DNA of 49,795 nucleotides from Gammaproteobacteria bacterium (GTDB lineage Bacteria; Pseudomonadota; Gammaproteobacteria; Xanthomonadales; Xanthomonadaceae): positions 1-49,795 of the forward strand of contig JANXRY010000124.1 in the NCBI GenBank assembly GCA_025356635.1. The letters run 5' to 3'. Below, in pieces: positions 5,907 through 34,366 of the stretch. The notes below the pieces were generated by a model. It did not search any database. It had not been told where the DNA came from and was given only the letters and a program-made list of their open reading frames with translations. The position numbers and the translations under genes are program-made. Numbering within the stretch: the first letter of the stretch is position 1; the number at the start of each line of letters is the position of its first letter.

Positions 5907-6233
5907 ATGCCCAAGACTAACCGTCCGGATCGCGAACATGACCATGGCTTGGCGGTGTTGACCGCCAAGCCGGAGGTGGTCCGACCGCCGCTTTACCAGG
6001 TCGTCCTGCTCAACGACGACTTTACGCCTATGGATTTCGTGGTCGAAGTGCTGCAGGTCTTCTTCAGCATGAACCGGGAAAAGGCGACCCAGGTCATGCT
6101 TCACGTGCATACCCGTGGCAAGGGTGTTTGCGGTGTCTACACGCGCGATGTGGCTGAATCCAAGGTAACCCAGGTCAACGAGTTCTCCCGCTTGCACCAG
6201 CACCCGCTGTTGTGCAGCATGGAGAAAGCCTAG
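5907..6233 (+). CDS. clpS: ClpS adaptor of ClpAP protease
   Basis: Recognises N-degrons (Leu, Phe, Tyr, Trp at the N terminus) and hands the proteins to ClpA. The 108 residues contain the hallmark [16 protein letters not shown] (N and D residues that bind the substrate alpha-amino group), [14 protein letters not shown] and the short flexible N terminus. The frame is open further upstream, but [14 protein letters not shown] fits the family start and the promoter-like TATACT ends 6 nt before it. clpA follows after 81 nt. The acting partner for Arg/Lys-type substrates, Aat, lies at 8935-9681. Confidence 0.95.
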
Positions 6234-6314
6234 GCTGGATTTGTCGATCTGGGCTTTCTGATTTGGAAATGGCGGCAGCGCCCCCATATTCGAGCAAACG
6301 TTCCGGAGTACGCC

Positions 6315-8594
6315 ATGTTCAGCAAGGACCTCGAATACAGCATCGGCCAGTGCTACAAGCAGGCCCGCGAAGCCCGCCATGAATTCATGACCGTCGAACA
6401 CTTGTTGCTGGCCTTGCTGGAAAATCCTGCTGCGGTCGCCGTACTCAAGGCCTGCGGCTGCAACCAGCCGCGGCTCGAACAGGGCCTGCGCCAAGTCATT
6501 ACCGACAGCGTGCCGGTCCTGCCTGCCGAAGATACCCGCGACACCCAGCCGACGCTCGGCTTCCAGCGCGTGCTGCAGCGCGCTGTCTACCACGTGCAGT
6601 CTTCCGGCAAGAAAGAAGTGACTGGCGCCAATGTATTGGTGGCGATCTTTGGCGAAAAAGACTCGCATGCCATTTACCTGCTGCAGCAGCAGGACATCGC
6701 CCGGCTCGACGTAGTCAATTACCTCTCGCACGGCATCGCCAAGGTCGGCGACGCCGCCGAATCCAAGCCTGCGGCCGAAGAAAAGCCGGAAGCGGAAAAC
6801 GCCGACGATACCAAGGCCAATCCGCTGCAGGAATTCGCCAGCAACCTCAATGATCTCGCCCGCGAAGGCAAGATCGACCCGCTGGTCGGACGTGAAGAGG
6901 AAGTCGAGCGGACTATCCAGGTGCTCTGCCGTCGGCGCAAGAATAATCCGCTTTACGTCGGCGAATCCGGCGTGGGCAAGACGGCATTGGCCGAAGGCTT
7001 GGCCTGGCGTATCGTCGAAGGCCGTGTGCCGGAAGTGCTGGCCGATGCGGTCATCTTCTCGCTCGACCTGGGTTCGTTGGTTGCCGGCACCAAGTATCGC
7101 GGCGATTTCGAAAAGCGGCTCAAGGCGGTACTCGCGCAACTGAAGAAAGAGCCGCGGACGATCCTGTTCATCGATGAGATTCATACCATCATCGGCGCCG
7201 GTTCGGCGTCGGGGGGCACCATGGATGCCTCCAACCTGATCAAGCCGGCGTTACAGAACGGCGAACTACGTTGCATCGGTTCGACCACGTTCCAGGAATA
7301 TCGCGGTGTGTTCGAGAAAGATCGTGCATTGGCCCGGCGCTTCCAGAAAATCGATGTTGTCGAACCTTCGATCAGCGAGACGGTGGCGATCCTGCACGGT
7401 TTGAAGGCGCGCTATGAGGCGCACCATGAGGTCGAATACAGTTCCGAAGCGATCCAGGCGGCCGTTGACCTTTCGGTCAAGCACATCAACGACCGGCTAT
7501 TGCCGGATAAAGCGATCGACGTCATTGATGAGGCCGGGGCACGCCAGCGCCTGCGTATCGAATCCGAGCGCAAGCACCTGATTGATGTCGAAGAAGTGGA
7601 GCTGATTGTCGCGCGCATGGCGCGGATCCCGCCCAAACAGGTCAGCGCTTCCGACAAGGATGTGCTCAAGAACCTCGAACGCAATCTGAAGATGGTGATT
7701 TTCGGCCAAGAGCCGTCGATCGAGACTCTGGTGTCGGCGATCAAGCTGGCGCGCTCAGGCCTCAGCAATCCCGACAAACCGATCGGCAATTTCCTGTTCG
7801 CCGGCCCCACTGGCGTCGGCAAGACCGAGCTGACCCGGCAGCTTGCGTTGCAACTCGGCATTGAGCTGGTTCGCTTCGACATGTCCGAGTACATGGAATC
7901 GCACTCAGTCAGTCGCTTGATCGGCGCACCACCGGGCTACGTCGGTTTCGACCAGGGCGGCCTGCTGACTGAGAAGATCGTCAAGACACCGCACTGCGTG
8001 CTGTTGCTCGACGAAATCGAGAAAGCGCATCCGGACGTGCTCAACATCCTGCTGCAGATCATGGACCGGGGCGTGCTCACCGACACCAATGGCCGCGAGG
8101 CCAACTTCAAGAACGTGGTGATCGTGATGACCACCAACGCCGGCGCCGCGCAGGCGGCTCGCCGCACCATTGGTTTCGTCGAGCAAAATCATTCGACTGA
8201 CGCGATGGAAGTGATCCGCAAGACGTTCTCGCCGGAATTCCGCAATCGTCTCGACGCGGTGATCCAGTTCCAGGGCCTCGGCTTCGAACACATCCTGCGG
8301 GTTGTCGACAAGTTCCTGATCGAACTCGAAGCACAGTTGCACGACAAACACGTCAGCCTGACGGCGACGCCGGAAGCGCGGCAGTGGCTGGCCGAGCATG
8401 GCTTCGACCCGCAGATGGGCGCGCGGCCAATGGCACGGCTTCTACAGGACCGGATCAAGCGCACCCTGGCCGACGAGCTGCTTTTTGGCAAGCTCGCCAA
8501 CGGCGGCCGTGTTGACGTCGATGTTCGCGATGGCGAACTGGTGGTGGAGTCTCAGACCGAGCCGGAGAAGCTGTTGCCCGCGACAGTCGACTGA
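6315..8594 (+). CDS. clpA: ATP-dependent Clp protease ATP-binding subunit ClpA
   Basis: Hexameric AAA+ unfoldase that feeds ClpP. The 759 residues hold an N-domain (1-150), a charged linker rich in Glu, Lys and Ala (about 150-170), a first AAA module with Walker A GESGVGKT (216-223) and Walker [10 protein letters not shown], and a second with GPTGVGKT (from about 497) and [10 protein letters not shown]. The IGF tripeptide in RRTIGFVEQ is the ClpP-docking loop. GGAG stands 8 nt before the ATG. The order clpS-clpA-infA-aat is conserved in gammaproteobacteria. No ClpP gene is in the window. Confidence 0.97.
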
Positions 8595-25695: not shown

Positions 25696-26010
25696 ATGAA
25701 ACGACGTGAATCTGAAGCCACTGACGGCGCACAGGCGGGCCTGGCCGAATTGCTGGCTGCCATACTTGCCCTGCGAACGCCCGCTGAATTGCAGGCCTTC
25801 CTCGAAGATCTGTGCACTCCTGCCGAGCTGGAGGCCTTCGCCGATCGCTGGCGGGTGGTGCCGTTGCTGATCGAGCACATTCCCTACCGGGAAATTCACG
25901 ACCGCACCAGCGTGAGCGTAACCACGATCGGCCGGATTGCGCGCTGTCTGGGGCTGGGTGCCGGTGGCTACCGGATCGCTGCCGAACGTGTGCTGGCGGC
26001 CAAGCCATGA
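25696..26010 (+). CDS. TrpR/YerC/YecD-family DNA-binding protein, probable his regulator
   Basis: A 104-residue all-helical protein of the TrpR superfamily: [22 protein letters not shown] then the helix-turn-helix [26 protein letters not shown]. TrpR binds operator DNA with tryptophan; what this subfamily senses is not established. It is the first gene of the his operon and its stop overlaps the hisG start (ATGA). A repressor of histidine synthesis is the natural inference. The longer alternative frame from 25812 belongs to hisG. The start has no Shine-Dalgarno sequence. Confidence 0.88.
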
Positions 26011-26906
26011 GAACGCATGACCGGCTGCGCGTCGCCATCCAGAAATCGGGACGATTATCCGATCCGGCCCGCGATCTGTTGAGTCGAGCAGGCCTGAGCT
26101 TTCGCGAAAGCCGAGACCGACTGTTCTGTTACGGGGAGTCATTGCCCATCGATCTGCTACTGGTCCGTGACGACGATATTCCCGGCCTGATCGCCGAAGG
26201 CGTCTGTGATCTGGGCGTGGTGGGACGCAACGTGGTCGATGAACAGGCCGCCGAACGCGAAGTGCTTGGCTTGGACACCGCCTATGCAGTGCTCAATTCC
26301 TTGGGATTCGGTCGATGCCGCTTGTCTATCGCCGTTCCCGCCGAATGGGATTGGACCGGCACTGATCGCCTTGCCGGGACCCGAATCGCTACCAGTTATC
26401 CGCATCTTCTGAATCGCTGGTTGCGCGACCGGAACCTGTCTGCCGAGGCCGTGGTGTTATCGGGATCGGTCGAAATCGCACCGCGCCTGGGTAAGGCCGA
26501 ATCCATCTGCGACCTGGTCTCCAGTGGCGCGACCTTGCAGGCCAATCAGCTGAAGGAAGTTGCCGTCGTACTCGAAAGCGAGGCTGTGCTGATCGGGCCG
26601 TTGAAGCCATTCACGGACGCGCGCGCCGAACTGGCAGCCTTGTTGCTGCGCCGCCTCGATGGCGTACTCAGCGTCCGTGCCAGCAAGTTGTTGTTGTTTC
26701 AGGCGCATCGGAGCGCCTTGCCTGAAATCATGAAGTTGCTGCCCGATGCGGAGCCGCCAACGGTGACCACCATTGAAGGCCATCAGGACAATGTTTCGCT
26801 ACAGGCATTGTGCCGAAGCACGATGACCTGGCAACGGCTGGAGGACATCAAACGCGCAGGTGCCAGCGGCTTGCTGGTCTTGCCCGTGGAGCAGATGCTG
26901 GCATGA
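26007..26906 (+). CDS. hisG: ATP phosphoribosyltransferase (long form)
   Basis: First step of histidine synthesis: ATP plus PRPP. The 299 residues equal the long HisG with a C-terminal regulatory domain (about 225-299) for feedback inhibition by histidine, so no HisZ is needed. [36 protein letters not shown] and [10 protein letters not shown] are family motifs, the last close to the PRPP site. Overlaps both neighbours by 4 nt. Confidence 0.95.
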
Positions 26907-28201
26907 AGCGCATTGACTGGGCCTTGGCCGGCGAGGACGAAAAGACGCTGGCTTTGCAGCGACCACTTCGCGCTCTTCAACCCGAAATCCAAGCGCTGGT
27001 GCGCCGGATTGTGGAGCAGGTGCGCGCCGATGGCGATGCCTGCTTGCGCGCACTGAGCCGGCGTTTCGACAAGGTTGAGCTGGACGCGTTCGCGGTGAGT
27101 CCGGGTGAATTCGAGCAGGCAGCGCGCGAGGTTCCGGAAGCGCTGCAGGCGGCGATGCGCGAGGCGCACGGCCGGATTTCCCGCTGGCATGGCGCCGGCA
27201 TGACGGCAGATTTCGAACTTGAAACGGCGCCTGGCGTTCTCTGTGGCCGGGTGCAGCGCGGTATTGGCAGAGTAGGTCTGTATGTACCAGCCGGTTCTGC
27301 GCCGCTGCCCTCGACTGCGCTGATGTTGGGCGTGCCCGCGGCAATGGCGGGTTGTCGCGAGATTGTCCTGTGCACACCGCCGCGTACGGATGGACGCGGC
27401 GATCCCTCGGTGCTGTTTGCGGCACAGTTATGCGGTATCCAGCGTGTCTTCAAACTGGGCGGTGCCCAGGCGATCGCCGCGATGGCGTTCGGTACCGAGT
27501 CGGTGCCAGCCTGCGACAAATTGTTCGGCCCTGGCAATGCCTATGTCGCGCTGGCAAAACAATGGGTGTCGGCAATGCCCGATGGCCCGGCGATCGATTT
27601 GCCGGCGGGGCCGTCGGAGTTACTGGTGATCGCCGATGCCGGCGCGAATGCGCAATTCATTGCTGCCGATCTGCTCTCGCAAGCGGAACACGGCGTTGAT
27701 TCGCAGGTACTGCTGCTGACTGATTGCGAGCCGCTGATCGAACGCGTACAAGCGGAAATAGAACGCCAGCTCACCGGGTTGGCGCGTGCGCAGATTTGCC
27801 GGGCCTCGCTCGAACATGCCCGCCTGCTAGTTGTGGCCGATCTCGGGCAAGCGTTCGAGATCAGTAACCGTTACGCACCCGAGCACTTGATCCTCGCCCT
27901 GCGTGAACCGCTGCGCTGGTTTGAATGCGTACACGCCGCCGGATCGGTTTTTCTCGGCGATCATACGCCCGAATCCTTGGGCGATTATTGTTCCGGCACC
28001 AATCACGTCCTGCCGACCGATGGCGCCGCGCACGCCTGGAGCGGTTTGTCGGTGGCCAGTTTCCAGACCAGCATCAGCCTGCAGTCAGTGACGCCTGCCG
28101 GTCTGGCGGAAATCGGGCCGTGTGCCGTTGCCTTGGCGCGCGCGGAAGGGCTGGAAGCGCATGCGCAAGCCGTACTCAGGCGACTCGCGGTGGCGCCATG
28201 A
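26903..28201 (+). CDS. hisD: Histidinol dehydrogenase
   Basis: Last two steps, histidinol to histidine with two NAD+. The 432 residues contain [47 protein letters not shown], the Zn-ligand region DLLSQAEHG and the C-terminal [14 protein letters not shown]. The ATG at 26903 overlaps the hisG stop. The long upstream frame lies inside hisG and is discarded. Confidence 0.96.
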
Positions 28202-29277
28202 GCGACGCGCTGGATTTCCTGCGCCCCGACTTGCGCGACTTTGCCGGCTACAACTCGGCGCGGCGTACGAAAACAAACGGAACGGTGTGGTTGAACGCCA
28301 ATGAATCACCACTGCCATCATTGGCAGACCAGGGCCAGCAATGGCATCGCTACCCGGAGCCGCAACCAGCGCAACTTCGTGCGCGAATGGCCGAACTCTA
28401 TGGCGTCCACCCGGAGCAACTGCTGGTAACACGCGGCAGCGACGAAGGCATCGATTTGCTGGTGCGTGCCTTCTGCCGGGCCGGGCGTGACGGTGTCTTG
28501 GTCGCACCGCCGTGTTTCGGCATGTATGCGGTGGCGGCCCGAATCCAGAATACGCCGCTGCTGGAAGCAGCATTGCGTGATTGCGATGGCGAATGGCAGC
28601 TCGATCCGCCGGCCTTGTTGGAGACAGTCGTTGGCCATGCTGCTCGGGTCGTGTTCCTGTGTTCGCCCGCCAATCCCACTGGACAGGCTTTGTCGCTGGA
28701 ACAGATCAGATCCCTGGCGCAGGCGCTGGATGGCCGTGCGTTGCTGGTCATTGACGAGGCGTATATCGAATTCAGCGCTATCGCCAGCGCCGCATGTTTG
28801 TTGCCGGAGTTTTCGCAGCTGGTAGTGTTGCGCACCTTGTCGAAGGCGCATGCGCTGGCGGGCGCACGCATCGGCGCGGTGCTCGCTGCACCGGAATTGA
28901 TCGCCATGCTCGGCAACATCAGTGCACCGTATCCAATCGCCGCTCCTTCCGCTGCCTTGGCACTGGCCGCGTTGTCGCAACCCGTGCTTGAGCTTTCCCG
29001 GCAACGGGTAGTGGCGACAATCCGCGAACGCAACGCGATGGCATCGGCACTGGCGAAGCTTGCCGGTGTGCGACGGGTTTATGGCTCCGAAGGAAATTTC
29101 CTGCTTGTCCGTTTCAACGACAGAGCCTTGGCCTATCAGCAACTGCTTTCGGCAGGAGTGGTGGTGCGCGATGTTAGCGCCATGCCCGGCCTTGCCGACG
29201 CACTGCGCATCACCATTGGTACGCCCGGGGATAATCTCGCCGTGCTCAAGGCCCTGCAGGCGGAGCGCGTTGTATGA
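28198..29277 (+). CDS. hisC: Histidinol-phosphate aminotransferase
   Basis: PLP enzyme of 359 residues, fold type I. The lysine that binds PLP is in [48 protein letters not shown] and [11 protein letters not shown] are standard. Alternate frames upstream come from hisD. It overlaps hisD and hisB by 4 nt each. Confidence 0.96.
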
Positions 29278-30245
29278 GTAAGATCCTGTTCATCGACCGC
29301 GATGGCGTGCTCGTTGCGTCGGCCAACGACGAGCCCATCGAACTGACGGCGGGAGTGATCCCGGGACTGTTGAAGCTGCGCGATGCCGGCTTCGAGTTCG
29401 TGCTGATGCCGACCAGGGATGGCGCCGGCCCGTCCGGTGCGAACCGGCAACACGTGCTGCGTCTGCTGGCGAGTCAGGGCATCCAGTTCCGGCCTGGAAA
29501 TGCGGCGTTTACCGACTACCTGCGTGATCGCAACATCGACCTGTCGGGCAGCGCCATGATTGGCGATCGTGAAGCCGACATGCAGTTTGCCGACAACCTC
29601 GGCGTTCGTGGCTTCCGGTTTTGCGCCGAACACTACGACTGGCCGGCTATAGCGCACACTCTGGTTGATGCGCCACGCACCGCCCGCATCGAACGGACGA
29701 CCCGGGAAACCCGCGTCCGCGTCGAGCTTGATCTGGATCGTTCGGCCGACCCGGTCATCGCCACCGGCTTGGGCTTCTTCGATCACATGCTCGAGCAGTT
29801 GGCAAAGCACGCCGGTGTCGCTTTGTCGGTCACCTGCGCCGGCGACTTGCAGATCGACGAGCACCACACGGTTGAAGACTGCGCCTTGGCGCTGGGCTCA
29901 GCCTTGCGCGAGGCATTGGGCGACAAGCGCGGTCTGTCCCGGTATGGCTTCACCTTGCCGATGGACGAGAGTCTTGCCAGAGCCGCAGTCGATTTTTCCG
30001 GGCGCGCCTGTTTTATTTTCGAAGGGCGCTTCCCGCGCGAGCGGGTGGGCGATCTGCCCACCGAACTGGTCGCGCATTTTTTTCGTTCGCTATGCGACAC
30101 GGCGGGATTGAACCTGCATCTGACCGTACAGGGCGACAACGCCCACCATATGGTCGAGGCCTGTTTCAAGGTAGTGGCGCGTGCACTTCGTCAGGCGATG
30201 CGTCGCGAAGGCATCGAATTGCCCAGCACCAAGGGCGTATTATGA
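29274..30245 (+). CDS. hisB: HisB: imidazoleglycerol-phosphate dehydratase with an eroded histidinol-phosphatase half
   Basis: The 323 residues are a fusion. Residues from about 140 on are a normal dehydratase ([30 protein letters not shown] metal histidines; ends PSTKGVL). Residues 1-138 are a HAD phosphatase with motif I FIDRDG (D8, D10), motif II T47 and motif IV IGDREAD (D98). E. coli HisB (355 residues) has, between motifs II and IV, a Zn loop with Cys93, His95, Cys101, Cys103 and the motif III Lys105; here that stretch (about 72-82) is deleted, with no Cys and no RKP. The phosphatase may be slow or inactive. The dehydratase should work. Confidence 0.93.
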
Positions 30246-30838
30246 CCGCCAAGGTCGTGCTGCTCGACTCCGGCGGCGCCAATCTGGGTTCAGTACAAGC
30301 CGCCTTTGCCCGGCTTGGCGTCGAGGCTCCGGTCACGGCCAATGTCGCCGCGATCCGGGCCGCGACCCACGTTGTCTTGCCGGGTGTTGGTGCAGCAGCG
30401 GTGACGATGGCGCGTCTGCATGAGAACGGCCTGAACCTGATATTGCCGACGCTTGCCCAGCCACTGCTCGGTATTTGCGTTGGCATGCAGGTGATGTACG
30501 AATACTCCGAGGAAGGCGACACGTGCTGTCTCGGCTTGCTGCCTGGCAATATCCGCCGATTGCCGGGGGGCGAGGGCGCACGCGTGCCGCATATGGGCTG
30601 GAATCGCCTGCGGCCGATCACTTCCCATCCGCTCCTCAACGGCCTCGACGATGCCTGGATGTATTTCGTCCACGGCTATGCGGCCAGCGTGGGCGGACAA
30701 ACACTGGCCAGCTGCGAGCATGGTGAGCCGTTCACTGCCGTGGTCGGTAGCGGGCGCAGGTTCGGCGTACAGTTTCACCCGGAGCGCTCTGGTGCCGCTG
30801 GCGCGCATTTGTTGAAGAACTTCCTGGCGCTGCGATGA
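30242..30838 (+). CDS. hisH: Imidazole glycerol phosphate synthase, glutaminase subunit HisH
   Basis: Class I glutamine amidotransferase of 198 residues that feeds ammonia to HisF. The triad is Cys79 in LGICVGMQ plus His and Glu in QFHPERS near residue 180. PGVGAA and PHMGWNRL are typical. The ATG overlaps hisB (ATGA); its stop overlaps hisA in the same way. Confidence 0.95.
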
Positions 30839-31569
30839 ATTGGACGATCTATCCAGCGATTGATGTCCGCGACGGTCGCGTCGTGCGCCTGGCGCAGGGC
30901 GACTACGGCCGGCAGACCGAATACGATGAATCACCATCGGAACTGGCCAAGCACTATCGGGAAGCCGGCGCCACCTGGCTGCATCTGGTGGATCTCGATG
31001 CCGCTCTTTCGGGTGGCTATTCGTTATGCCCTTTGCTTGAGCGAATCAAGGCCGAGACCGGCCTGAAAGTTCAGACCGGAGGCGGGCTTCGATCGGAGTC
31101 AGACATCGAACGCTTGCTGAAGACGGGCGCCGATCGGGTCGTTGTCGGTACGGTTGCTGTGCGTGAGCCGGACAGGGTATCGCGTTGGTTGCATCGATTC
31201 GGCCCGGACAAACTCGCCGTGGCCCTCGATACCCGCCAGGATGCCAGTGGTCGCTGGCGCCTGCCGGTGAAGGGCTGGACGGAAGATTCGCCCCGCACGC
31301 TTGGCGATCTGCTCCAGACCTACGATGGGCATGGTCTGCGGCATGTGCTGTGTACCGATATCGCCCGCGACGGAATGTTGGGCGGATTCAATTTCGGTCT
31401 CTACGAACGTTTGCTCCTGCGCTGGCCCGGCTTGTTGCTGCAGGCCTCCGGTGGCGGCGCCGAGCTCGATGAATTGCGCGCCTTGCGCGAGTTTGGCGTG
31501 GCTGGTGCCGTGCTCGGCCGTGCCTTGCTCGAAGAGCGGTTCACGTTGCCGGAGGCACTGGCATGCTGA
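30835..31569 (+). CDS. hisA: ProFAR isomerase HisA
   Basis: A TIM-barrel isomerase, 244 residues, acting before HisHF. The general acid and base Asp residues are in [14 protein letters not shown] and [24 protein letters not shown] and [14 protein letters not shown] are the two phosphate-binding halves. It overlaps hisF by 7 nt. Confidence 0.95.
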
Positions 31570-32339
31570 GCCGACGGATCATCCCATGCCTGGACGTGCG
31601 CGACGGCCAAGTCGTGAAGGGCGTTGGCTTTCGCGATCACGTGGTGATCGGTGGAATCGTCGAGCTTGCCCTGCGTTATCGCGACGAAGGCGCCGATGAA
31701 CTCGTTTTCTACGACATCACCGCCAGCCCAGAGGGGCGTTCGGTGGATCGCGCCTGGGTGCAGTCCATATCCGACCAGATCGACATCCCCTTTTGCGTGG
31801 CGGGCGGCATTCGTTCGGTCGTGGAAGCACGCTCCGTGCTCAATGCCGGCGCCGACAAGATCTCGGTGAATTCGCCGGCGCTGGAGCGGCCTGCGCTGAT
31901 CGCCGAACTCGCCGAAGCTTTCGGTGAGCAATGCGTGGTGGTCGGCATCGACAGCCTGCGCGATGCCGATGGCGAATGGCGGGTTCGGCAATACACCGGA
32001 GATCCAGGCAAGACTCGTTCGCTGGCATGTCGCACGCTCGATTGGGTCGAAGAAGTGCAAGCGCTTGGTGCGGGCGAGATCGTGCTCAATTGCATGGCGG
32101 CCGATGGTGTTCGCAGCGGATACGACATAGAACAACTGCTGGCCGTCCGCAAGGTTTGTCGGGTGCCCTTGGTTGCTTCCGGTGGCGCCGGGAAACGCGA
32201 GCATTTCGCGGAAGTTTTTCGCAACGCGGACGTCGATGCCGCCCTTGCGGCCAGTATTTTCCACTCGGGAGAACTGCCGATACCCGTGCTGAAAAACTAT
32301 CTTCGCGAGCAGGCAATCGAGGTGCGCGATGTCGCCTGA
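31563..32339 (+). CDS. hisF: Imidazole glycerol phosphate synthase, cyclase subunit HisF
   Basis: TIM-barrel of 258 residues, partner of His[61 protein letters not shown] and [17 protein letters not shown] are hallmarks. The stop lies 11 nt into hisIE. Confidence 0.97.
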
Positions 32340-32931
32340 AACGCAGGCATTGCTGGCCTGGGACAAACAGGGCGGGTTGCTTCCGGCGGTGGTCCAGGAG
32401 GCATCGAGCGGCCGCGTGCTCATGCTTGGCTACATGAACCGGGAAGCGTTGGTCGTCACTCAGACGTCTCATTACGTGACGTTTTTCAGTCGCAGCCGGC
32501 AGCGCCTCTGGACCAAGGGCGAAACCAGCGGCAACCGTCTGGAACTGGTCTCGATCGAGGCCGATTGCGATGGCGACAGCTTGCTGGTTCAGGCACGGCC
32601 GCAAGGTCCGACCTGCCACACGGGGCGGGCCAGTTGCTTCGTTGAAGCGCCGGCGAATTTCCTGGGCGAACTCGATGCCTTGGTGGCCGAACGCGAGCGC
32701 TTGCGCCCGGAAGGCAGCTATACCAGTGGCCTGTTCGCGGCCGGAGTGAAACGGATTGCCCAGAAGGTCGGCGAGGAGGGCGTCGAAACCAGCCTGGCCG
32801 CCGTTGTGGAAGACGATGCCGCATTGCTAAGGGAAGCGGCAGACCTGATCTTCCATCTGGTTGTGCTGCTGCGTGCGCGTGGGCTTTCGATCAACGATGC
32901 CCTACAGGTGCTGGAGCAGCGACAGCGCTGA
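32329..32931 (+). CDS. hisI: Bifunctional phosphoribosyl-AMP cyclohydrolase / PR-ATP pyrophosphohydrolase
   Basis: Second and third steps of the pathway fused in 200 residues. The HisI half has [24 protein letters not shown] and [12 protein letters not shown] (Zn cysteines). The HisE half begins near residue 110 and has [15 protein letters not shown] and [17 protein letters not shown]. Last gene of the operon, converging on the C13 peptidase with a 10-nt gap. Confidence 0.96.
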
Positions 32932-32941
32932 TCTGCAACGA

Positions 32942-34366
32942 TCAGTTCGCCAGCGTCTTTACGACAGGGTGGAACGCCAATGCGGTTCCGGGCGTCAGGC
33001 TTTTGCGCCATTCCTGCAAATGCGCGCCTATTTCACTGCCAACCGCCATTTGCGGCACCGAAGGTGTCTGGCCCTGGGCCAGTTCCCATTCGCGAACCTT
33101 GTGGCTGGCCAATGAAAAGGCTTGCTCGAAGTCGGTGGTCTGGTTCAGTGCCTCGGTGAGGAAGGCTTTGCCAAACCAGGTGATATCCGAATCCGCGCCG
33201 CAGCCGAACGACGTGCGGTCGCTGCGCGCGGAGGTAATCACCAGTGTGTGCGGATCACGCAACGCATCGACGAAGCCGCCCGAATAGCAAGCTGATACCA
33301 CTACGACGCGCCAACGGATTTTCGCTTCGTCCAGCGCCGCGCGAAGGTCCTGCGGATCGATCTGATCGAGCGCCAAGGGTTGCATGCCGACATAGAGTTG
33401 GTGGTTTTCGCTGCCGTGGCTGGTCAGGAACAGCAGCAGGATGTCTTGGTCGCCATCCATCTTCGAACCGATACCGGCGAGTGTACCGCGCAGATTGGAC
33501 AAGGTCGCCAGCGGTTCGCTATCTAGGGTATCCGGGCTGTTCACCAAGGGCAGCGTGCGGCCGACCGCGCCAAAGCGCTGGGCCATCAATTCATCGAAGA
33601 AATCGACCTCATTACGAAATACCGATTCGCTGCCATCGCCGGCGAAGCCCAGCGCATACAGATCAATCCGCCCCGGCGTCTGGGCGCGCAAGCCTGCGAG
33701 GCGTTGTTGTACCAGCGCCGGTTGTTGGTAGATCAGCGCCTCCGGGTCGAAGCTGGGCAGTGCCGGTTCGCTATCTGCCTTTTCGGCGACCGCCTCGTCC
33801 TGCTGGTCGTCCGGCGGATACCAGAGCCAGGCTGTTTGCCGCCAGATCCACGGGTCGGCGAGCATGGCGGCGAGCAGCAGCACCGAAAAAAACCTGCGCA
33901 CGAAACCGGCATCGCGGGCCAGAAAGCCGACGGCGCGCAACAGGACGGTGAAAACGCCAAAGCTCAGTAATATCCACCAGGCATCGAGTTGCAGTTCCTC
34001 GGCATCCACCAGCCAGATCGGTAACTGCACTGCCAGCGCCATCCAGGCGATGCCCACCAGCACCACGATGCTCGCCAAGGTCAGCCACAACGCCGGTCGT
34101 TTCAAGGTCCAGGCTGCCAACCATGCGGCCATGAGGACGCACAAGAAATAACTGGCCTGCTGATGCAGGCCATTCGTGTAGAAATGCGCGGGCGGGTCGG
34201 TGTTGCGGAAGTCCTGCAAGGCAGAAATTGCCAAGGCGAAGGCGCAGGCAAACAGGAAACTTCCGAAACCGACTAGGACGACGGGCGAACGTGGTCGTCG
34301 CCAAAACGTCAGGGACAGCGACTGGCGCATGACTTCGTTCAACTTCCGTGCGGCGCTCATGGGCAT
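32942..34366 (-). CDS. Membrane-anchored C13-family (legumain/caspase-like) cysteine peptidase
   Basis: The product has 474 residues. The N-terminal 180 hold about five membrane segments (near 30-50, 72-90, 95-120, 130-150, 158-175); the rest is a soluble caspase-fold domain. Catalytic His317 in LLFLTSHGS and Cys360 in VVVSACYSGGF match the peptidase C13 pattern. The substrate is not predictable; family members range from legumain to GPI-transamidase. The start may be ATG 34364 or the ATG two codons on. It starts 3 nt after the mtnC stop, the last gene of mtnB-mtnD-mtnC, so it is probably in that operon. Confidence 0.85.
   Translation of the reverse strand: MPMSAARKLNEVMRQSLSLTFWRRPRSPVVLVGFGSFLFACAFALAISALQDFRNTDPPAHFYTNGLHQQASYFLCVLMAAWLAAWTLKRPALWLTLASIVVLVGIAWMALAVQLPIWLVDAEELQLDAWWILLSFGVFTVLLRAVGFLARDAGFVRRFFSVLLLAAMLADPWIWRQTAWLWYPPDDQQDEAVAEKADSEPALPSFDPEALIYQQPALVQQRLAGLRAQTPGRIDLYALGFAGDGSESVFRNEVDFFDELMAQRFGAVGRTLPLVNSPDTLDSEPLATLSNLRGTLAGIGSKMDGDQDILLLFLTSHGSENHQLYVGMQPLALDQIDPQDLRAALDEAKIRWRVVVVSACYSGGFVDALRDPHTLVITSARSDRTSFGCGADSDITWFGKAFLTEALNQTTDFEQAFSLASHKVREWELAQGQTPSVPQMAVGSEIGAHLQEWRKSLTPGTALAFHPVVKTLAN

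Follow-up and report, generated by a model that had tools for sequence, protein, structure and literature searches.

An eroded phosphatase half in the HisB of a xanthomonadaceous bacterium and a HisN-like candidate for its replacement

The hisB gene and its operon

The window analysed here is a stretch of 49,795 nucleotides from a gammaproteobacterium of the Xanthomonadaceae (GenBank assembly GCA_025356635.1, contig JANXRY010000124.1, C110 below), part of a 2.51 Mb draft genome of 126 contigs (97.4% complete, 2.65% contaminated) that appears to be metagenome-assembled. On its forward strand lies hisB (29274-30245), recognized by its scores against NF003937 and dehydratase models as a 323-residue bifunctional histidinol-phosphatase/imidazoleglycerol-phosphate dehydratase (IGPD) frame. 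Its two halves have fared differently. The N-terminal HAD phosphatase half (residues 1-136; 29274-29681) is eroded according to the alignment, an AlphaFold model and its TIGR01261 score, while the IGPD half (29682-30242) is intact and matches PF00475 at 204.5 bits (cut-off 27). HisB exceeds the cut-offs of two curated dehydratase-only models, NF002111 and NF002114, and falls below that of the bifunctional model NF003937 (394.1 bits; curated cut-off 443) and that of TIGR01261 (83.8 bits; cut-off 140), the last two scores being without a control from relatives in the genus, unlike the TIGR01656 score given below.

The gene is embedded in a complete his operon (26004-32931) in the order hisG-D-C-B-H-A-F-IE, with hisG and hisD at 26004-28201, hisC at 28198-29277 and hisH, hisA, hisF and hisIE at 30242-32931, all on the forward strand. 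Each of the seven his genes other than hisB scores above at least one curated NCBIfam cut-off. The hisB start codon lies within the hisC stop, in the ATGA at 29274-29277. Because the operon is complete, the phosphatase step is presumably needed.

Erosion of the HAD half

The HisB comparison set comprised 197 loci that reduce to 172 distinct sequences, the HisB of the window included. Its HAD half measures 136 residues, against 165-183 (median 169) in the 171 others. Relative to L001, a close and intact relative with which it shares 83 of 135 aligned HAD residues and 135 of 188 in the dehydratase half, exactly three in-frame gaps are present: six residues after residue 23 (junction 29342/29343), seven after residue 60 (29453/29454) and 17 after residue 72 (29489/29490), the last taking away strand 3 together with what had been the metal loop, as far as motif III.

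A preliminary description of this DNA, made by reading it, had stated that motifs I and IV remain, and both are indeed in place: FIDRDG at residues 6-11 (29289-29306), with D8 and D10, and IGDREAD at residues 96-102 (29559-29579), with its Asp pair. Its statement that QFRPGNAAF leads directly into DYLRDRN was nearly exact, the stretch being contiguous with a single Thr between the two strings. Motif II, which it did not mention, is altered as well. The region reads PTRDG (29409-29423) where relatives have (T/S)NQDG, so that Pro occupies the Thr/Ser column and Thr the Asn column, compared with T/S followed by N in 170 of the 172 proteins. In the motif III Lys column the alignment places Arg73, an ambiguous placement that could equally match the Arg following F in relatives (FREVL). 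As for a lysine supplied from elsewhere, which had been suggested, the HAD half contains only K3 and K34, and along the sequence neither lies close to motif III. A seven-residue signature taken from these motifs (the two Asp of motif I, Thr/Ser and Asn of motif II, Lys of motif III and the two Asp of motif IV) reads DD(T/S)NKDD in 170 of 172 HisBs. The two exceptions are the HisB of the window (DDPTRDD) and that of Pinirhizobacter soli (GESSLDD; L036, NZ_JADZLQ010000001.1, 6001-7053).

Of the columns that are at least 95% conserved in all other HisBs, the HAD half keeps 25 of 39, whereas the dehydratase half keeps all 79. Elsewhere in the set the lowest HAD counts are 28/38 in P. soli and then 35/38. 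The TIGR01656 score is 42.9 bits (26.3 in the genome search; cut-off 84.15), whereas hisB of 15 other genomes of the genus reaches 115.9-133.8 bits. The preliminary description had placed most weight on loss of the Zn loop and the motif III Lys; the loop is gone and the Lys column holds Arg, but the Zn ligands Cys-His-Cys-Cys are intact in only 28 of the 172 HisBs, and thus do not define the family. Near relatives of the HisB of the window retain the loop and lack the Cys/His ligands. Judged from these alignments, the Zn site was lost earlier: these HisBs commonly lack the ligands, though not the loop itself, and loss of the Zn site can be ruled out as the key event.

An assembly artefact could in principle produce such a protein, given that the sequence comes from a single draft genome, with no second assembly of the species found and read coverage unchecked. 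Against this stand three separate in-frame gaps combined with substitutions at conserved sites, as well as a GC content of the HAD half (62.7%) equal to that of its surroundings. With three relatives as queries, tblastn revealed no sizeable remnant of the missing HAD stretch in another frame, which rules out a frameshift or assembly break as its cause. We regard an artefact as very improbable; the defect of the HAD half is real and rare.

Evolutionary tempo and the structural model

When terminal branches for the two halves were estimated on one fixed topology of the 172 HisBs, the protein of the window had 0.65 for HAD and 0.39 for IGPD, and that of P. soli 0.80 and 0.18 (medians 0.11 and 0.13). 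Nowhere else in the set does the HAD branch exceed the IGPD branch by as much as in these two. In P. soli the decay took another form: there is no large gap, motif I reads FLGREG, with both the nucleophile and the acid Asp replaced, and the motif III Lys is Leu, while the dehydratase half again keeps 79 of 79 conserved columns. In the same tree, a fast tree without support values, the HisB of the window is placed with intact proteins (L001, L070, L113, L117 and L131) and that of P. soli among intact proteins of the Luteibacter group; therefore the two erosions look independent. One of these relatives, L070 (JAENWE010000523.1), is filed under Vicinamibacteria, although its hisB is 63% identical to that of the window and groups with the relatives of the latter; its contig is probably mis-binned.

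In the AlphaFold model, core strand 3 is absent and strand 2 is shortened; the confidence (pLDDT) is 84.7, compared with 93.8 for intact L001 modeled from the same 42 sequences. The bifunctional HisB, or His(NB), of gammaproteobacteria, whose HAD half has been solved as 2fpr/2fps, shares with this protein its place in the operon, the order of fusion, motifs I and IV, the dehydratase half and, in the model, the overall HAD fold. It differs in having what is lacking here, namely the motif II Thr/Ser and Asn, the motif III Lys, strand 3 and the loop. The protein could nonetheless still be a histidinol phosphatase, if the motif I Asp pair and the motif IV Asp act, Arg73 replaces the Lys and Thr47 serves motif II by a shift of one position. 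The HAD fold match of the model says little here, being expected of a model built from HisB relatives, and this explanation must accommodate the loss of 14 of 39 conserved columns against none of 79 in the other half, the deletion of strand 3 with the entire approach to motif III, and the excess of change in the HAD half. We consider continued activity unlikely. The suspicion in the preliminary description that activity may be lost is supported by the column counts, and the sequence comparisons strongly suggest that the HAD half is dead as a phosphatase.

A HisN-like phosphatase elsewhere in the genome

If the HAD half is dead, a second histidinol phosphatase would be expected, as had been predicted together with a proposal to look for HisN- or PHP-type enzymes. 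Searches with PF00459 gave three proteins here. Of the 18 other members of the genus that were searched, 15 have two, G157 a single one and G128 three; in G149 there are four matches, a pair of which appear to be fragments of the same gene. The three of the present genome comprise a protein with SuhB motifs, one with CysQ motifs and P0002, an IMPase-type phosphatase encoded on contig C21 (3576-4355, reverse strand). P0002 scores 274.3 bits against TIGR02067, 0.9 bit short of the cut-off of 275.15, and is therefore termed HisN-like. Among PDB chains it matches 4n81 (E 3.4e-69) and 5eq7 (6.8e-63) far better than it does 5yht, annotated "Histidinol-phosphatase" (1.5e-34), or SuhB (6.9e-24).

Six motifs have been described for IMPase-type histidinol phosphatases (HolPases), in the accessible portion of the source on which all our comparisons with that work are based (PMC5516325). 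P0002 matches them with one exception in motif 4, where a moderately conserved Arg95 is Thr. Its motif 5, RFGGDCYIY, resembles RFGGDCYAY of the Dietzia HisN, which complements a C. glutamicum delta-hisN mutant (PMC5516325), and this motif is absent from the SuhB- and CysQ-type proteins of the genome. P0002 thus shares the six motifs and the confirmed motif-5 type with the IMPase-type HisN (TIGR02067) of C. glutamicum, Dietzia and Zymomonas and with plant HISN7. It differs from that group in its score just under the curated cut-off and in that its nearest relatives were found in eutBC clusters. As a replacement for the HAD half P0002 remains a reasoned candidate.

No counterpart of P0002 was found in the 26 other genomes of the genus (27 searched, 19 of them with a completeness of 90% or more and a contamination of 5% or less). 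Their best TIGR02067 matches reach at most 96.9 bits, close to the score of the SuhB-type protein of this genome (82.2), although motifs were examined for only some of these matches. At E 1e-50, TIGR02067 was found in only three of 14 control genomes (Caulobacter, Synechococcus and C. glutamicum). The proposed search yielded a HisN-like protein, while on the PHP side PF02811 gave, in this incomplete genome, one match in a 746-residue open frame. Its counterparts in relatives mostly span about 1150-1260 residues, the size of DNA polymerase III alpha, which suggests this identity for the match. The genome search with TIGR01656 gave two partial matches, hisB and a weak one. Neither the PHP nor the TIGR01656 search thus brought up a clear second candidate, and no search was aimed at SerB-like or other HAD proteins.

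Origin and context of P0002

Contig C21 (6.3 kb) also carries truB, rpsO and the single full copy of pnp in the genus-type order. Its pnp is 80-91% identical to those of 24 other genomes of the genus (a second piece in G168 is 74% identical), 99.7-100% identical to that of G165, and was not found in G158. Linked as it is to genus-type truB-rpsO-pnp, P0002 is not supported as contamination; read coverage was not checked. One locus of G165 (L188, contig C140) has a PNPase 99.7% identical to that of the present genome (L149), yet for the TruB next to it the identity is only 80%, a mismatch that points to recombination or to chimerism of the contig.

With a support of 99, P0002 falls in a group with two hisN genes of Rhizobiaceae plasmids (58-63% identity), which suggests that it was gained horizontally from an alphaproteobacterium-like source. 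On C21 it is divergent from a choline/ethanolamine-kinase-like gene, followed by a FAD oxidase-like gene that is cut by the contig end and whose best NCBIfam match, ThiO at 117.9 bits, is below cut-off. There is no phospholipase, transporter or eutB gene on the 6.3 kb of C21; the rest of the genome was not searched for them.

Of 398 genomes of the order, 27, this one included, have a TIGR02067 match at E 1e-74 or better. All 26 others have hisB, and only that of P. soli is eroded. P. soli thus resembles the present case in combining an eroded HAD half, an intact dehydratase half and a TIGR02067 gene (307.4 bits); its second, weaker gene (217.6 bits) belongs to a HisN-like group scoring 205-244 bits. 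Unlike the arrangement on C21, its hisN-like gene adjoins a gene for a phosphocholine-specific phospholipase C and phnS2, with phnU2 and eutB near. In two of the 26, G140 and G478, motif 5 is changed to RYGGECYAM, and two genome labels (G428 and G215) refer to the same genome place. That both eroded HisBs occur in TIGR02067-positive genomes has a base-rate probability of about 0.004, or (26/397)^2, a figure that comes from two cases, ignores kinship and is void once the genes scoring 205-244 bits are taken to be HisN too. For the same reasons we reject the co-occurrence as proof.

Weighing the explanations

The reading that we favor, with a rough probability of 0.62, is that the HAD half is decayed and kept by fusion while P0002 hydrolyzes histidinol phosphate in trans. 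The HAD half would no longer produce histidinol, and would persist owing to its in-frame fusion to a dehydratase half that the cell still needs; the ATGA overlap is present and may also retain it through hisC-hisB coupling. Hydrolysis would most likely fall to P0002; once this enzyme had been gained horizontally, the HAD half would have become redundant and could erode.

Several observations weigh against this account. Within HisB, the aspartates of motifs I and IV are still present, and some HAD enzymes can have Arg in place of the motif III Lys. Both halves lie above the median branch length, and the lineage thus appears fast in general as well. P0002 misses the TIGR02067 cut-off, however narrowly, and at 97.4% completeness another phosphatase could have been missed. 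Among the 26 other TIGR02067-positive genomes of the order, 25 keep an intact HAD half, and the 205-244 bit group, with a motif 5 mostly of the RGYGDF.HY type, is widespread where the HAD half is intact; a spare phosphatase thus allows HAD decay without forcing it. The gene neighborhoods may point to another function for the clade. The Rhizobiaceae plasmid hisN genes (L303 and L304) lie between a gene of the choline kinase/phosphotransferase family and eutB-eutC. In all six neighborhoods examined (L305-L310), out of the 26 HisN-like genes found in the order, the gene is flanked by a phosphocholine-specific phospholipase C (TIGR03396 in P. soli, with 56-58% identical homologues elsewhere) and an aminoethylphosphonate-type transporter. 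A DeoR regulator is also present in the six, and eutB in two of them. The native substrate of the clade may accordingly be an amino-alcohol phosphate.

On these grounds a different enzyme, such as a promiscuous HAD protein or one that is SerB- or SuhB-like, might act on histidinol phosphate, with P0002 being catabolic only; the choline-kinase-like and FAD oxidase-like genes that adjoin P0002 on C21 would fit such a role, as does the amino-alcohol phosphate context of its clade. Yet P0002 carries the HolPase motifs as published, with a motif 5 of a type also present in confirmed HolPases (as far as the accessible portion of PMC5516325 goes), motif 5 is missing from the SuhB- and CysQ-type proteins encoded here, and apart from hisB there was but one weak partial TIGR01656 match, albeit in a search that did not extend to SerB-like and other HAD proteins. 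This explanation seems to us improbable, to much the same degree as a HAD half that is still active and perhaps slightly less so. Histidinol phosphate is a substituted phosphoethanolamine, and so is itself an amino-alcohol phosphate. It is for this reason that P0002 still ranks first as the substitute; the enzyme may be a phosphatase of amino-alcohol phosphates that takes care of histidinol phosphate as well.

Another explanation is that the organism is a histidine auxotroph blocked at step 8, the HAD half being an early sign of pathway loss. There is some precedent in the genus, in that four of 27 genomes (G160, G158, G161 and G165) have no detectable hisB; G160 is given as 99% complete, and the three others are only 74-85% complete. 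In the present genome the remaining his genes are whole and recognized, and the dehydratase half retains every conserved column. Auxotrophy is therefore a distant prospect, a little less so than an artefact. Beyond the operon, on the opposite strand (32942-34366), is a gene for a 474-residue membrane protein with, by reading alone, a caspase-like look (peptidase C13/C14 type).

Implications

A broader scenario can be put forward tentatively, and we would sooner doubt it than not. A mobile IMPase-type clade of ethanolamine, phosphocholine and aminoethylphosphonate clusters, annotated as histidinol-phosphatase, would cover the eighth step of histidine synthesis and would on at least two occasions, in this lineage and in P. 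soli, have taken over from the HAD half of fused HisB. The non-catalytic remnant would shrink and yet be undroppable, held by its fusion and start-codon coupling to an essential dehydratase. Among the literature titles listed, with few subscription journals covered, none dealt with degeneration of the HisB HAD half or with an amino-alcohol phosphatase role of this clade.

The role of HisN orthologs in Xanthomonadaceae that have a bifunctional HisB was left open in the accessible portion of PMC5516325. A genome with a broken-looking HAD half and a visible HisN-like candidate makes that question testable. It also cautions that either annotation, "bifunctional HisB" or "histidinol-phosphatase", can be incorrect for one activity. 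If the favored reading is true, the HisB described here would represent domain loss frozen half-way by gene fusion.
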